From: Bradyrhizobium sp. NDS-1
GTDB taxonomy: Bacteria > Pseudomonadota > Alphaproteobacteria > Rhizobiales > Xanthobacteraceae
Length of the DNA stretch: 64,000 nt
NCBI RefSeq assembly: GCF_032918005.1
Contig: NZ_CP136628.1
Location: 1,163,501 to 1,227,500 of the forward strand
Direction: 5' to 3'
The notes beneath the pieces are model-generated. The model was not told the DNA's origin and made no database searches. It saw only the letters and a program-made list of their open reading frames with translations. The position numbers were made by a program, and so were the translations under genes. Every line of letters begins with the position of its first letter. The stretch's first letter is position 1. Positions 7,858 through 62,713 of this stretch are shown here, piece after piece.

Positions 7858-8068
7858 CGTTCAAAAGTCCAATTTGAGGCCGTTATTAACCGAAAGCAGC
7901 CATTTCGGGGGTAAATATTGCCAAGCTCGTGCGTCGGCGCGCCGCGCTCTTGCCCTATTCGACGGGTTGTTAAGGGCCGGCGGGAATCGTAAAATCGCGA
8001 GCACGCTGGTTGCGCTTCAATTGGGAAGACGCCGGACCCCGTAAGCTCCTGCCGGAGAGACCTTCTTG

Positions 8069-8734
8069 ATGATCCGTCATTTGATGGTTCCGATCACTGC
8101 CGCCATGGTCACCCTGAGCGCCGCGGGCGCCTATGCGCAAAGCGCCTTCCCGGCGCCGCTGCCGAATCAGGCTGCCACCAGTTCCGCGTTTCCCCCCGTG
8201 AACGGCTCGGCGCCGACCGCTTCGGTCGGCACGGCGCCGTCGCAATCGTCCTTCCCCGTGAATGGCGCTGCGCCCCTCGGGGGCGCTGGCGCGTTCAGCG
8301 CAGCTCCGCCGACGCAAGCCGGTCCCGGCGAGGACTGCATGAAGGCGTTCATGCCCCTGCGCGAAGAAGCCGAGAAGCGCGGCAAGCTGATCAAGGCCGC
8401 GAGCGACCGTCATGCGGCGCCGGACGAGGCCTGCAAGCTGATCCGCAATTTCAGCCAGGCCGAGTCGAAGATGCTCAAGTACATCGAGGCCAATGCCGCC
8501 AAATGCGGAATCCCGGCGCAGGTCGGTGATCAGATGAAGGCCGGCCACAAGAACACCGAGGCCATGGCGACCAAGGTTTGCAACGTCGCGGCACAGATGC
8601 AGAACCAGCCTCGCGGTCCGGCCGGCCCGTCGCTGAGCGAGGTGCTGGGGTCGGGCTCCGCACCTGAGGCCAATGCCGGCAAGAAGGGCGGCAGCACCTT
8701 CGATACGCTCAACGGCAACGTCCTCACGCGATGA
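8069..8734 (+). CDS. Exported protein of unknown function
   Basis: The 221-residue product has a signal peptide (MIRHLMVPITAAMVTLSAAG, cleavage near AYA-QS). The ATG at 8069 is preferred over the TTG just before it because GGAGAGA lies 8 nt upstream. A Pro/Ser/Ala-rich low-complexity stretch (residues 25-80) is followed by a helical region with Cys at EDCMKAF, EACKLI, AKCGI and KVCNVA. These could form two disulphides in the periplasm. I recognise no catalytic motif. The stop codon is directly followed by the first of two long palindromic elements, which may act as its terminator. Confidence 0.75.
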   Translation: MIRHLMVPITAAMVTLSAAGAYAQSAFPAPLPNQAATSSAFPPVNGSAPTASVGTAPSQSSFPVNGAAPLGGAGAFSAAPPTQAGPGEDCMKAFMPLREEAEKRGKLIKAASDRHAAPDEACKLIRNFSQAESKMLKYIEANAAKCGIPAQVGDQMKAGHKNTEAMATKVCNVAAQMQNQPRGPAGPSLSEVLGSGSAPEANAGKKGGSTFDTLNGNVLTR

Positions 8735-8736
8735 TA

Positions 8737-8815
8737 CACGTGCCGCCGATTTGAAGTTCCTACGATGCTCGTCGCGAGATCCTGATAGGAACTTCAAATC
8801 GATAAGCGGCACGTG
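8737..8815. repeat. 79-nt bulged palindromic element, copy 1
   Basis: The left arm (8737-8762) and right arm (8786-8815) pair over 26 bp: an outer 10-bp stem (CACGTGCCGC), a 4-nt bulge (ATAA, 8802-8805) in the right arm only, then a 16-bp inner stem (CGATTTGAAGTTCCTA). The loop is 23 nt. It begins 2 nt after a stop codon and is not followed by a T-run. Size and architecture match the element at 8831-8909. Confidence 0.85.
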
Positions 8816-8830
8816 AATTGAGATTTTCTG

Positions 8831-8909
8831 GCTAGTGCCCCTGTAGTTTTCGAAGTTCGTACCGGGATACGCCGCGATGGAATACGAACTTCGAAAACTG
8901 GGCACTAGC
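8831..8909. repeat. 79-nt bulged palindromic element, copy 2, overlapping the ubiA start
   Basis: The left arm (8831-8861) and right arm (8883-8909) pair over 27 bp: an outer 10-bp stem (GCTAGTGCCC), a 4-nt bulge (CTGT, 8841-8844) in the left arm only, then a 17-bp inner stem (AGTTTTCGAAGTTCGTA). The 21-nt loop contains the ubiA ATG (8877-8879). The bulge is on the opposite arm from copy 1, so the two copies lie head-to-head, 15 nt apart. The right arm encodes ubiA residues from about 3 to 11. Confidence 0.85.
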
Positions 8910-9833
8910 ACATCCGCCCGCGTTGCCGATTCCACCGGCAATTGGGTCGATACGCGTGCGCCGCAATGGGCGCGGCCTTATTTGCGCCTGTCCCGCTTCG
9001 ATCGTCCGATCGGCTCCTGGCTGCTGCTGATGCCGTGCTGGTGGTCGGCAGCGCTCGCGAGCGGCATGGCGCATGACGTCCGCGACCTTCCGCTCACCAT
9101 CGTCCTGTTCCTCGTCGGCGCCTTCGCGATGCGCGGGGCGGGCTGCGCCTGGAACGACATCACCGATCGCGATCTCGACGACAAGGTCGAGCGCACCCGC
9201 TCGCGGCCGCTGCCCGCGGGGCAGATCACCGTGAAGCAGGCGCTGGCCTTCCTGGTCGCTCTGGCGCTGGTCGGGTTCGTCGTGCTGCTCCAGTTCAACC
9301 GCTTTGCCGTCATGACCGGCATCGCCTCGCTCCTGATCGTCGCCATCTATCCCTTCATGAAGCGCGTCACTTGGTGGCCGCAGGTCTTTCTCGGGCTCGC
9401 CTTCTCCTGGGGCGCGCTGATGGGCTTTGCCGTCACCTTCGGACGCATCGACGTCACCGCGCTGGTGCTCTATGCCGGTTCGATCGCCTGGGTGATCGGC
9501 TATGACACGATCTATGCGCATCAGGACGCCGAGGACGACGCGCTGATCGGTGTCAAATCCACCGCGCGCCTGTTCGGCGCCCATACGCATCAGGCGCTGA
9601 TCCTGTTCTATGGCGTCGCGGTGATGCTGATCGGCGTCGCGCTGGCTTCGGGCGATGCGCGCTGGCCGGCCTGGCTCGGGCTTGCCGCCTTCGCCGCGCA
9701 TCTGGCGTGGCAGATCGCGCGCTTGCGGATCGACGATCCCGAGCTGTGCAAGCGCCTGTTCTATTCGAACAGGGATGCCGGGCTGATGCTGTTCGCGGGG
9801 TTGCTGGCCGACGCGGTGATGCGGTCGGCGTAG
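8877..9833 (+). CDS. ubiA: 4-hydroxybenzoate polyprenyltransferase
   Basis: UbiA attaches the polyprenyl tail to 4-hydroxybenzoate in ubiquinone synthesis, in the inner membrane. The 318-residue protein has about eight hydrophobic segments and both Asp-rich motifs: NDITDRDLDD (first, about residues 95-105) and DTIYAHQDAEDD (second). Conserved homology appears to begin near APQWARPYLRL; the first 20 residues come partly from the palindromic element at 8831-8909. I find no other credible in-frame start, so ATG 8877 is likely real although it sits in a hairpin loop and lacks a good ribosome site. Translation could therefore depend on that structure. Confidence 0.93.
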   Translation: MEYELRKLGTSTSARVADSTGNWVDTRAPQWARPYLRLSRFDRPIGSWLLLMPCWWSAALASGMAHDVRDLPLTIVLFLVGAFAMRGAGCAWNDITDRDLDDKVERTRSRPLPAGQITVKQALAFLVALALVGFVVLLQFNRFAVMTGIASLLIVAIYPFMKRVTWWPQVFLGLAFSWGALMGFAVTFGRIDVTALVLYAGSIAWVIGYDTIYAHQDAEDDALIGVKSTARLFGAHTHQALILFYGVAVMLIGVALASGDARWPAWLGLAAFAAHLAWQIARLRIDDPELCKRLFYSNRDAGLMLFAGLLADAVMRSA

Positions 9834-27633: not shown

Positions 27634-28212
27634 TCAAATTAGCTCGTAGCTCGTAGGATGGGTTGAGCCCTCGCGAAACCCATCGCTGCTCGATCCCCGC
27701 TCACCGTAATCGCGGCCGTCATCCGACTGATCGCCGGCCCAATCAACCGGGTAATTGCCAAGCTCGACGTGGCGATGAAACGAGGAGGGCGCCCAGTCAC
27801 GCACCCGGTTGACGAGCCCGTGCTTGACCGGATTGATATGAACATAGTCGACATGCCGCGCGAAATCGACGTCGTCACGAATGGTATGCTCCCAATATCT
27901 GCGTTGCCAAATGCCCCGCTCACCCTTGGCCGAGCGGCTTCGGGATATCCTCTCATTGCGCGGCAGACCGCGCGAAAAGGTGGATTTGATCAGCTGCCAA
28001 CGCATTGCAAAAACGGCATCACCTTCCGGTAGCGTCCACACCGTGTGAAGGTGGTCAGGCAGCACCACGATGGCATCGATCGTGAACGGATGGCGCCGGT
28101 GCGTCTCGCGAAACGCCCCGCGCAACACCTCGATATGATCCGTCAGCAACGCCAGCCTCCGCTCCGCCAGATTGACGCCACCCGGAACGAAGTCGCGGCG
28201 GTACGCGGTCAT
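27634..28212 (-). CDS. REP-associated tyrosine transposase (RAYT, Y1/IS200-like)
   Basis: The 192-residue protein is a single-domain HUH transposase of the RAYT group, which cut and rejoin single-stranded REP DNA. The HUH metal motif is LPDHLH (His54, His56). The C-terminal block VDYVHINPVKHG (residues 121-132) is the RAYT hallmark, and Tyr123 is the likely nucleophile. The frame is intact from ATG 28212. Both ends of the element are REPs, and the last 15 or so residues (DGFREGSTHPT) are encoded by the left REP itself, so the protein reads out of its own substrate. The length fits the family. Confidence 0.92.
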   Translation of the reverse strand: MTAYRRDFVPGGVNLAERRLALLTDHIEVLRGAFRETHRRHPFTIDAIVVLPDHLHTVWTLPEGDAVFAMRWQLIKSTFSRGLPRNERISRSRSAKGERGIWQRRYWEHTIRDDVDFARHVDYVHINPVKHGLVNRVRDWAPSSFHRHVELGNYPVDWAGDQSDDGRDYGERGSSSDGFREGSTHPTSYELI

Positions 28213-28350: not shown

Positions 28351-28767
28351 ATGCGCTCATTCGTTTTCTTGTGTATTGCAGCTTTGTTGTTGTCCGGATG
28401 TAAGACGACGCAGGTGGGCGAGGCCACATCTTCGGGCGGTGCGACTGCGGCTCCCGTAACTGAAATTATCTCTCCGAGCGCCAAAGCGTTAATAACGCCA
28501 GAAGTAATCAAACAATGCGCTGACGAGATGGTCGAAAAGATTCCGACAGTCAAATTTCTCGGCCCGTTTTTTGTTGGCGCACAGCGGTTCGGCAATCTCT
28601 TTGCAAAGGGCGAGGAAGTCTTAATAGCGGTTCCGACGAGCACTGTTGGAGCGTTCAATGGAACGTACCATCAGTACTTGGCGTGTGCTTATGACTTCCA
28701 TGACAATCAGTTGGAGTTTACGAAGAAGATATTCTCGTTCAAGAGATTAGCTCGTAGGATGGGTTGA
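28351..28767 (+). CDS. Lipoprotein of unknown function ending inside a REP
   Basis: The 138-residue product has a lipoprotein signal: MRSFVFLCIAALLLSGCKTT with the lipobox LLSGC (Cys17 lipidated). The mature part has no domain I recognise. Its last residues RRMG and stop TGA are encoded by the REP that begins at 28753, so the original C-terminus has probably been replaced by the REP insertion. The region is less GC-rich than the core genes, which suggests acquired DNA. Confidence 0.75.
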   Translation: MRSFVFLCIAALLLSGCKTTQVGEATSSGGATAAPVTEIISPSAKALITPEVIKQCADEMVEKIPTVKFLGPFFVGAQRFGNLFAKGEEVLIAVPTSTVGAFNGTYHQYLACAYDFHDNQLEFTKKIFSFKRLARRMG

Positions 28768-28913
28768 GCCTTTGCGAAACCCATCGCTTTCCCAATCTTG
28801 GCTCTCCGCCTTCGGGACTATCATCCGATCTATAGTGACGATTAATCGCTCATAGCGCTCGGTCAGCTAGCTTATCGTGCAATGGGTTTCGCAAGGGCTC
28901 AACCCATCCTACG
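28753..28913. mobile_element. Minimal REP pair (non-coding derivative)
   Basis: REP 28753-28787 and inverted REP 28879-28913 enclose a core of about 91 nt. The core keeps weak resemblance to the edge of the RAYT element (GGCTCTCCG...ATCATCCGA, compare CGCTCTCCG...GTCATCCGA near 26905). It looks like an older deletion derivative, reduced to a bipartite REP unit. Confidence 0.75.
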
Positions 28914-28915
28914 GG

Positions 28916-29412
28916 CTAGGGCCGGAAAATATTGCCGCTCGGCTGCCCGGACAGCGGCGCATCGAGGAAGTAGCTTCCGAGTTTGCGGTTCTCGCCGACG
29001 GTCGCCTTCAATTCCTCAACTGTACGAAAATCTCCCGGGAAGAAGCTAACAACCGGAAACACCGGCAGCTTGAGATAATAGATGTCCCAGGTGTTGATCG
29101 TCGTTTCGCCGAAGTGCCCAATGTTGCAAAGGTCTTTGTGTACCGGTTCCTCGCTGAAGCTCATGATGAGACCGAATGCGGAAAGGCGATCTCCGAAAAA
29201 AGGTGGTTGCTACCGCCCAGCGACATCATGCCTGTTACGCCCGATTGCCGGCTGGACGTCGACTCCGACGGATCATAAAGATAAGCCCAGACGCTGATGC
29301 CCCGCGGCAGTAACCGCCGTTCGCGATCAAGCACGAACTTCACCAGATCGGGATAATTCTTTTGCAGGCTCGGCCCGCATGCCGAGAAAAACATGACGCA
29401 GATCTGCTTCAA
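28916..29412 (-). pseudogene. Two overlapping frames, possibly one frameshifted gene of unknown function
   Basis: The minus strand holds a frame at 29161-29412 (83 residues, starting MKQICVMFFSACG, with WAYLYDPSES) and a frame at 28916-29164 (82 residues, ending SGQPSGNIFRP). They meet at ATGA (29161-29164). Their composition is similar and the first ends abruptly after HSVSS. Either they are two coupled small genes or one gene with a frameshift. The left end stops at the REP at 28913. I recognise no family. Confidence 0.4.
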
Positions 29413-51162: not shown

Positions 51163-51200
51163 GCGCGCGCCTCTCCGGATCAACAATTCTCCATCGAGGT

Positions 51201-51285
51201 CGTCATGCCCGGGCTTGTCCCGGGCATCCACGTTCTTGATGCTAGAAGTAAGACGTGGATGGCCGGGACAAGCCCGGCCATGACG
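51201..51285. repeat. REP-type palindrome (GTCATGCCCGGGC family)
   Basis: An 85-nt inverted repeat: CGTCATGCCCGGGCTTGTCC and CATCCACGT on the left pair with ACGTGGAT and GGACAAGCCCGGCCATGACG on the right. It separates cheY from the convergent HAD gene. It belongs to the common genus repeats and probably ends both transcripts. Confidence 0.8.
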
Positions 51286-51324
51286 ACGTCTGGGCTGACG
51301 CGCCCGCGCGGTCAACCGCAGCCA

Positions 51325-52179
51325 TCACCACTTCAATTCGCGCATCAGCGCCTTCGGCGGGTGCCCGAACAACTCCGCCACCGAATTCGGGTCGAGCTGG
51401 TCGAGACCCTCGAACTCCTCGGCATGGATGCCGCGGGTGACGAACAGGCAGTCGATGCCGAATTCGCGCGCGCCGGTCAGGTCGGTACGGACGGAATCGC
51501 CGATCGCGAGCACCTTTTTTCGGTCGATCTGGTGGCCCTGGCGTTCGCCGGCGAGCGCCATCGCGCGCTCATAGATCGGGCGGTGCGGCTTGCCGTAGAA
51601 GATCACTTCGCCACCGAGCTCGCGATAGAGTTCCGCGATTGCGCCGGCGCAATAGATCAGCCGGTCGCCGCGTTCCACCACGATGTCGGGGTTGGCGCAG
51701 ACCAGCGTCAGCTTTCGCTCGCGCGCCTTCAGCATCATACCGCGATAGTCTTCCGCCGTCTCGGTCTCGTCGTCATAAAGGCCGGTGCAGACGATGTAAT
51801 CGGCTTCTTCCAGCGGCGCGGTCACGGCATCGAGGCCCCGATAGATCGAGTTGTCGCGCTCGGGGCCGAGCCAGAACATCTTGCGTCCGGGATGCTCGGC
51901 CACATAGAGCCGCGTCAGGTCGCCCGAAGACACGATCGCGTCATAGGTCTCGTCGGCGACGCCGAGCTTGCGCAATTGCCGCTGCACCGAGTCGGCCGGC
52001 CGCGGTGCGTTGGTGATCAGGATCACCGTACCGCCGCGGCTGCGATAGGTGTGCAGCGCCTCGCAGGCTTCGGGGAAGGATTCGAGGCCGTTATGGACGA
52101 CGCCCCAGATGTCGCTGAGAACGACATCGACGCCGCCCACGAGCTCGCGCAGGCTTTCGGCGAAATGCAGCGTGGTCAT
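51325..52179 (-). CDS. HAD superfamily hydrolase, TIGR01459 type
   Basis: The 284-residue cytoplasmic enzyme belongs to the HAD subclass IIA (NagD-like) family TIGR01459. SDIWGVVHNG (about residues 22-31) carries the nucleophile Asp and second acid; ILITNAPRP supplies motif II, and GDSVRTDLTGA near the C-terminus supplies the motif III acids. It hydrolyses a small phosphorylated substrate, unidentified. It is 15 nt downstream of the EAL gene on the same strand, so probably one transcript. Confidence 0.92.
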   Translation of the reverse strand: MTTLHFAESLRELVGGVDVVLSDIWGVVHNGLESFPEACEALHTYRSRGGTVILITNAPRPADSVQRQLRKLGVADETYDAIVSSGDLTRLYVAEHPGRKMFWLGPERDNSIYRGLDAVTAPLEEADYIVCTGLYDDETETAEDYRGMMLKARERKLTLVCANPDIVVERGDRLIYCAGAIAELYRELGGEVIFYGKPHRPIYERAMALAGERQGHQIDRKKVLAIGDSVRTDLTGAREFGIDCLFVTRGIHAEEFEGLDQLDPNSVAELFGHPPKALMRELKW

Positions 52180-62695: not shown

Positions 62696-62713
62696 GTGCC
62701 GATTTGAAGTTCC
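62696..62713. repeat. Half-copy of the 8737 palindromic element
   Basis: GTGCCGATTTGAAGTTCC repeats one arm of the element at 8737-8815 with a 3-nt deletion, 23 nt upstream of the uvrC start. The matching inverted arm is not present within 100 nt. Confidence 0.55.

Follow-up and report, generated by a model that had tools for sequence, protein, structure and literature searches.

A probable IS630-type MITE in Bradyrhizobium that appears to provide the ubiA start codon from a hairpin loop

The window, that is, the whole stretch of 64,000 nucleotides of the Bradyrhizobium sp. NDS-1 contig NZ_CP136628.1 that was analysed, carries a ubiA gene (4-hydroxybenzoate octaprenyltransferase; TIGR01474, 365 bits) placed behind a gene for which neither Pfam nor NCBIfam gave a hit. 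The junction between the two genes is occupied by a pair of long bulged hairpins, and the ATG assigned to ubiA lies in the loop of the second one. The features of the junction are as follows.

8066..8734, plus strand: upstream gene, 222 aa, whose TGA stop (8732-8734) overlaps the putative remnant of the original ubiA start
8731..8754, plus strand: putative remnant of the ancestral ubiA start, ATG ATA CAC GTG CCG CCG ATT TGA
8737..8908, plus strand: putative mobile element, full match to covariance model R1 (167 bits), of which the window copy is itself a row
8737..8760, plus strand: left terminal repeat, CACGTGCCGCCGATTTGAAGTTCC
8737..8815, plus strand: hairpin 1, with an outer stem of 10 bp (8737-8746/8806-8815)
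8747-8762/8786-8801, plus strand: hairpin 1 inner stem, 16 bp
8763-8785, plus strand: hairpin 1 loop, 23 nt
8802-8805, plus strand: hairpin 1 bulge, on the 3' arm
8816..8830, plus strand: linker joining the arms formed by hairpins 1 and 2
8831..8909, plus strand: hairpin 2, with an outer stem of 10 bp (8831-8840/8900-8909)
8841-8844, plus strand: hairpin 2 bulge, on the 5' arm
8845-8861/8883-8899, plus strand: hairpin 2 inner stem, 17 bp
8862-8882, plus strand: hairpin 2 loop, 21 nt, containing the ubiA ATG
8885..8908, minus strand: right terminal repeat, read inward, CTAGTGCCCAGTTTTCGAAGTTCG
8877..9833, plus strand: ubiA
8877..8879, plus strand: predicted ubiA start codon, in the hairpin 2 loop
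8877..8909, plus strand: predicted element-encoded N-terminus, MEYELRKLGTS

Both palindromes had been described in an earlier note made from the sequence, and their coordinates and build held on re-check. The stems of both hairpins are perfect. The folding energy of region 8725-8925 was -100.1 kcal/mol, as compared with -55.5 (sd 4.2) for shuffled sequences (z = -10.6), and 0/200 shuffles folded as well. The hairpins had been taken for two inverted copies. Their inverted, bulged arrangement is real, but they are the two arms of a single element: many BLAST and covariance-model matches elsewhere span both hairpins end to end, indicating one unit of ~172 bp.

Searching the genus with the element DNA (8735-8910), with at most three candidates scored per genome, gave matches in 126/265 genomes at E <= 0.001. 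The earlier note had proposed checking whether the palindromes were unique to this locus, and clearly they are not confined to ubiA. Away from ubiA, many matches cover query positions 6-174, that is, both hairpins. Four genomes that were searched deeper yielded 45, 40, 43, and 41 matches, split copies being counted twice. The element is ~165-172 bp long, multi-copy, and devoid of a transposase gene. The genome to which the window belongs yielded no further copy (one search scored 150 of the 2766 candidates), except for a fragment at the far end of the window.

62696..62713, plus strand: fragment amounting to half a stem of this family, GTGCCGATTTGAAGTTCC; by eye, it lies close to the start of a minus-strand gene

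Outside the genome set, the exact stem pattern occurred in at least 118 stretches, from records of Bradyrhizobium, Brucella, Mesorhizobium, Rhodoplanes, Pseudaminobacter, Nitratireductor, Pararhizobium, and others. When the covariance model was applied to 12 of the 80 loci listed, 12/12 matched over its full length. The element was not matched in the plasmid and phage collections. At 51205-51351 and 28733-28923, the model also gave weaker matches, which by eye looked like other palindromes, outside the family. Another long palindrome of the GTCATGCCCGGGCTTGTCCCGGGCATCCACG type, with 38-nt arms that are 92% complementary, lies at 51196-51290. Incidentally, GAAGTTCCTA resembles FRT half-sites. 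As the stems of the family vary, we consider this likeness a coincidence and rejected the idea of an FRT-like recombination site.

An alignment of 31 copies (A1) was used for pairing and end counts. In this alignment, 97.0% of the cells were paired, and double changes were seen in 22/52 pairs (99 double-change cells). None of 500 shuffles reached these values, which were also far above those of slid structures. The notion that pairing has been kept while the sequence changed is therefore true between copies at different loci. The compensatory changes scarcely extended to the 26 ubiA orthologs, wherein the stems were nearly frozen, the changes one-sided, and a single double change was found, at pair 8762/8786 in 1/26.

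The ends of the element pointed to a source of mobility. CTAG was found at the right end in 28/31 aligned copies and at the left end, as the first four letters of the left repeat, in 18/31. A full IS630-family transposon in genome G159 has ends CTAGTGTCCTGAATCTGAAGTTCG and sits in CTAG. Relatives of its transposase were detected in 126/265 genomes at E <= 1e-60. The ends of the element (CTAGTG...GAAGTTC) recur in these transposons: 28 of the 30 transposase loci examined have CTAGTG at the terminus and an equally spaced AAGTTC, two of them (L331 and L342) being one letter off at one end; the 28 are not independent, since seven (L347-L353) represent one insertion and L344 and L346 another. The right end of the window copy was identical to the IS630 terminal repeat of locus L152 at 18/24 positions without gaps (1/200000 shuffles was as good). 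In other genera, too, two-hairpin units among the 19 listed carry the L152 end. According to a title cited in PMC2170065, IS630 prefers TA within CTAG. At another locus, L115 (G242:C1:4917600-4922000), nested and neighbouring elements were seen, a younger copy with different stem sequences splitting an older one at its CTAG. On the basis of the CTAG ends, the terminal repeats common to IS630 transposons, and the CTAG split in L115, we filed the element as an IS630-type MITE, and we infer that it was moved in trans by an IS630-family transposase. No IS630 transposase of this group was found at 1e-60 in the window genome, so mobility of the element there would be historical.

REPINs are made up of two inverted bulged hairpins, as is the present element, and the window contains a gene of the kind associated with them.

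27634-28212, minus strand: RAYT-like Y1 transposase gene (PF01797)

An origin as a REP/REPIN element, with mobility provided by a RAYT (Y1) enzyme, would offer the right shape and a candidate partner, but we hold it to be hardly credible. The element was within ~1.5 kb of a Y1 gene at 1/30 loci only, in a copy-rich genome, and a RAYT/Y1 partner was rejected on this count. Moreover, there is no GTAG tag, the ends match IS630, and the arms are 79 nt long versus 20-40 nt for REPs, as given in PMC3733652. About 0.5 kb from the RAYT-like gene lies a palindrome, GTAGGATGGGTTGAGC / GCTCAACCCATCCTAC, at 28754-28769 and 28897-28912, which resembles GTAG-tagged REPs.

We then compared ubiA starts with and without the element, as the earlier note had suggested, and found both filled and empty sites. 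The ubiA gene is present in 262 genomes, and among 71 distinct loci inspected, 27 were filled and 44 empty. By eye, 34/44 empty loci start at an ATGA overlapping the upstream stop, typically CGATGAGCGACACATCC, and ten deep-branching ones start slightly further downstream. In close relatives lacking the element, the ATGA matches the position of the remnant at 8731. In the window, translation from the ATG at 8731 would enter the element and meet a stop behind the seventh codon. The loop ATG was kept in 27/27 filled orthologs, with the frame open over the 226-228 codons read. It appears that the element has cut ubiA off from its ancestral start and that the loop ATG now supplies one. Among the best 120 public UbiA sequences listed, 7 begin with M[ED]YELRK, one of which represents 120 sequences.

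Because hairpin 1 stands directly behind the upstream stop codon, the hairpins might be 3' structures of the upstream gene, with ubiA starting elsewhere. We regard this as very improbable: the ubiA frame has in-element stops just before the loop ATG, the first 20 codons past the element contain no ATG, GTG, or TTG, and the loop ATG is invariant in all filled orthologs.

The filled ubiA sites had the same position and sequence type. Their distribution on the tree needs 13 changes, 8 of which are forced by well-supported branches, and we read these as filled and empty alleles exchanged by recombination, rather than as repeated insertion. No target duplication was visible at ubiA, where the left end is CACG and where CTAG is absent in the empty relatives inspected, L026 apart. 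At that locus, in the deep-branching relative G015, a half-hairpin remnant of the element family sits directly before ubiA, which is perhaps an independent hit of the junction.

Stem constraint was assessed in 26 filled ubiA orthologs. The mean pairwise difference was 0.034 at non-coding stem sites (79 sites) and 0.183 in loops, bulges, and linker (61 sites), while four-fold sites gave 0.215 in ubiA and 0.328 in the upstream gene. Recent spread cannot explain this contrast between stems and loops, since the loops share the history of the stems. At a second locus, the element lies between genes that by eye are ftsY-like and rluA-like in 10 genomes (L104-L108, L110-L114). There, the letters of the hairpin 2 stem are entirely different, the build is the same, and the stems are nearly invariant (0.015 versus 0.23-0.27 at four-fold sites). 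Of the two loops, that of hairpin 2 varies freely (0.21), unlike that of hairpin 1 (0.035). At the two loci, stems thus vary 6-18 times less than synonymous sites, although decayed copies may have escaped this count, as the sites were located through similarity.

A possibility, offered in the earlier note, was that an RNA structure controls ubiA translation; in this reading, the structure would be conserved and a signal would open or close the loop start codon. The location of the start codon in a loop, the great stability of the fold, and the far stronger conservation of stems than of loops among ubiA orthologs would all be in keeping with it. Yet, in genome G271 (L071, same species), a deletion has removed part of hairpin 1 and has left just 8 nt of the hairpin 2 5' arm, and the ubiA ATG and frame are intact. 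In addition, an RNA stem should prefer G.U, whereas mismatches over 92 copies were G.T in 79 cases versus A.C in 62 (p 0.18), and 10 versus 12 pair types at ubiA; such similar frequencies speak against selection on one RNA strand. The same structure also occurs at the unrelated locus above, and scanning the window against Rfam gave 0 matches at the gathering score. RNA control of this sort is unlikely in our view, and the deletion and the mismatch counts are what turned us away from it.

Alternatively, the element might be a dead MITE whose stems owe their seeming conservation solely to repair in replication, each arm serving as a template for its partner. Nearly all pairs being Watson-Crick, together with the many double changes between copies, would fit such template switching. 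This process predicts double changes at about the neutral rate, but only the one mentioned above was seen among the 26 ubiA orthologs. The ubiA stems are simply slow (0.034, versus 0.18 in loops and linker and 0.21-0.33 at four-fold sites), and they are slow at the second locus too. We therefore give this explanation a small but not negligible chance.

The preferred reading, that of a MITE starting genes from its loop, was examined in a set of 92 non-overlapping copies, window copy included. An ATG was present in the hairpin 2 loop region in 51/92 copies, and 40 of these 51 read out of the element. In eight of the 92 copies, the frame of the loop start codon leads into a gene in which no start of its own was obvious. 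Conserved genes entered from the loop include those for UbiA, HemW, LptE, RluD, and LolC/E, for an MBL-fold hydrolase and a VOC-like protein, and for a uracil-DNA glycosylase, where the codon is GTG. Six of the eight were ordinary Pfam hits, LptE was just below the Pfam cut-off, and the VOC-like protein had a weak NCBIfam hit only. In some of the eight, a start codon does exist within the conserved part or at its border.

HemW provided a second case. In G072, this protein begins MEHELRKVGTS-GQNQQEAFGVYVHWPF. Among the best 120 public HemW sequences listed, 5 have the same element-derived N-terminus and others read MINGQSQQEAFG or similar. The G072 copy is flanked by TTGACTAG on the left and CTAGTGGG on the right. 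In relatives without the element, the rdgB/hemW junction reads TTGACTAG in 2/24, its TAG being the rdgB stop, and is of other sequence in 22/24. The hemW flanks and the nested L115 copy fit insertion at CTAG with duplication. An upstream TAG stop falls within the left CTAG of the element in 4 of the ten cases listed, at the leuS-like/lptE, cytochrome c/soxY-like, and rdgB/hemW junctions and between one pair of unassigned genes.

We asked how the loop-start frame compared with the two other outward frames. Among the 84/92 copies that could be assigned, there were 62 outward open frames of at least 90 codons (20, 21, and 21 per frame), of which 60 were searched in Pfam. Recognised genes lacking an obvious own start made up 8/13 in the loop-start frame versus 0/17 in the other frames (Fisher p 0.0002), a class that was defined after seeing the data and that includes ubiA itself. 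The VOC-like gene was found with NCBIfam only, which was not run on the other two frames. With a strict definition, by which the domain may not be preceded by any ATG, GTG, or TTG, the figures were 5/13 versus 0/17 (p 0.009). Leaving out ubiA and the VOC gene, they became 6/11 (p 0.001), or 3/11 with the strict rule (p 0.05), versus 0/17. When any long outward frame was counted, the loop-start frame 0 was not enriched (14 versus 18 and 18), the bias being confined to genes that lack a start of their own. The same element family seems to have supplied start codons to several other genes. With copies across the genus and several of them at gene starts, the idea of a family of mobile palindromes inserting at gene starts, put forward in the earlier note, gained support.

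Several known systems resemble the element. CIR, the CcrM-associated intergenic repeats of Caulobacter and Brucella (Chen and Shapiro 2003, via PMC2229807), are summarised there as ~110 bp long, with GANTC at the terminal loop, located outside genes, and without open frames. They share with the present element an alphaproteobacterial host, two long inverted-repeat arms with a linker, and 5'TA3' at the termini (PMC2229807). By description, the only basis of this comparison, the present element differs in being ~170 bp long and in that its copies appear to donate start codons. GANTC is absent from the window copy and from 11/31 copies overall, so it is not a general motif of the family, and its commonest place is the linker (15/31) rather than the terminal loop. 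Nor does the element keep outside genes and open frames, as it appears to start UbiA, HemW, and others. The RUP/IS630-Spn1 pair of pneumococcus is similar in that a MITE carries IS630-like terminal repeats and has a TA target, but RUP is 107 bp long and is listed in PMC2229807 without open frames. Rickettsia palindromic elements (RPE) are, in the passages of PMC2229807 and PMC10969869, palindromes read in frame into conserved proteins; they lie inside genes and are read through, whereas the present element would give a start codon from its loop. In Brucella, a related genus, Bru-RS1/RS2 are palindromic repeats of 103-105 bp (PMC2267715, PMC2266754). Brucella records also contain stems of the present family, and the likeness to Bru-RS is taken from descriptions. 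Br-REP1 and Br-REP2 (PMC5082802) are palindromic repeats of Bradyrhizobium whose published consensuses are short and, by eye, unlike the element; Br-REP2 is said there to form part of a larger repeat. As far as these partial accounts go, the closest systems are CIR for architecture, RUP/IS630-Spn1 for the logic of mobilisation, and RPE for the coding aspect. In the abstracts and passages searched, we saw no MITE giving start codons from a hairpin loop.

Collectively, these data make it very probable that the element is a non-autonomous IS630/Tc1-mariner-type MITE and that ubiA, and likewise other genes, now start from a codon in its loop. Such a transposon, consisting of two hairpin arms and a linker and moved by a transposase acting in trans, would have inserted at CTAG sites, several of which coincide with a gene junction where the upstream stop codon and the downstream start both overlap the site. 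At ubiA, the insertion would have split the gene from its ancestral start. The frame of the hairpin 2 loop ATG crosses the right arm and leaves the element without a stop, from which we infer that ubiA is translated from this ATG, with ten or eleven residues encoded by the element. The same start rescue would have occurred at several other genes. A transcript start in the loop, or RNase cleavage, would allow ribosomes access to an ATG enclosed in a 27-bp hairpin.

Going further, we tentatively propose, as a reading that may well prove wrong, that the element acts as a portable start codon. The upstream stop codon would lie inside CTAG and the downstream start would come from the loop, such that a stop-free outward frame and a loop start would keep both neighbours of an operon junction alive; at fixed sites, the stems would then have come under strong selection at the DNA level, and essential genes would have gained a new 5' end through domestication of the element. 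Since related strains carry filled, empty, and half-deleted natural alleles of one gene start, the working of a start codon inside a long hairpin is directly testable. For annotation, it should be noted that the element is the probable source of any N-terminus in these genera that follows the pattern M-x-x-ELRK-x-GT-S/R. A MITE family that repeatedly took over the start codons of conserved genes would, if real, show a selfish element settling at operon junctions at little cost, the genes affected being those of ubiquinone synthesis, a heme chaperone, LPS assembly, lipoprotein export, and rRNA modification.
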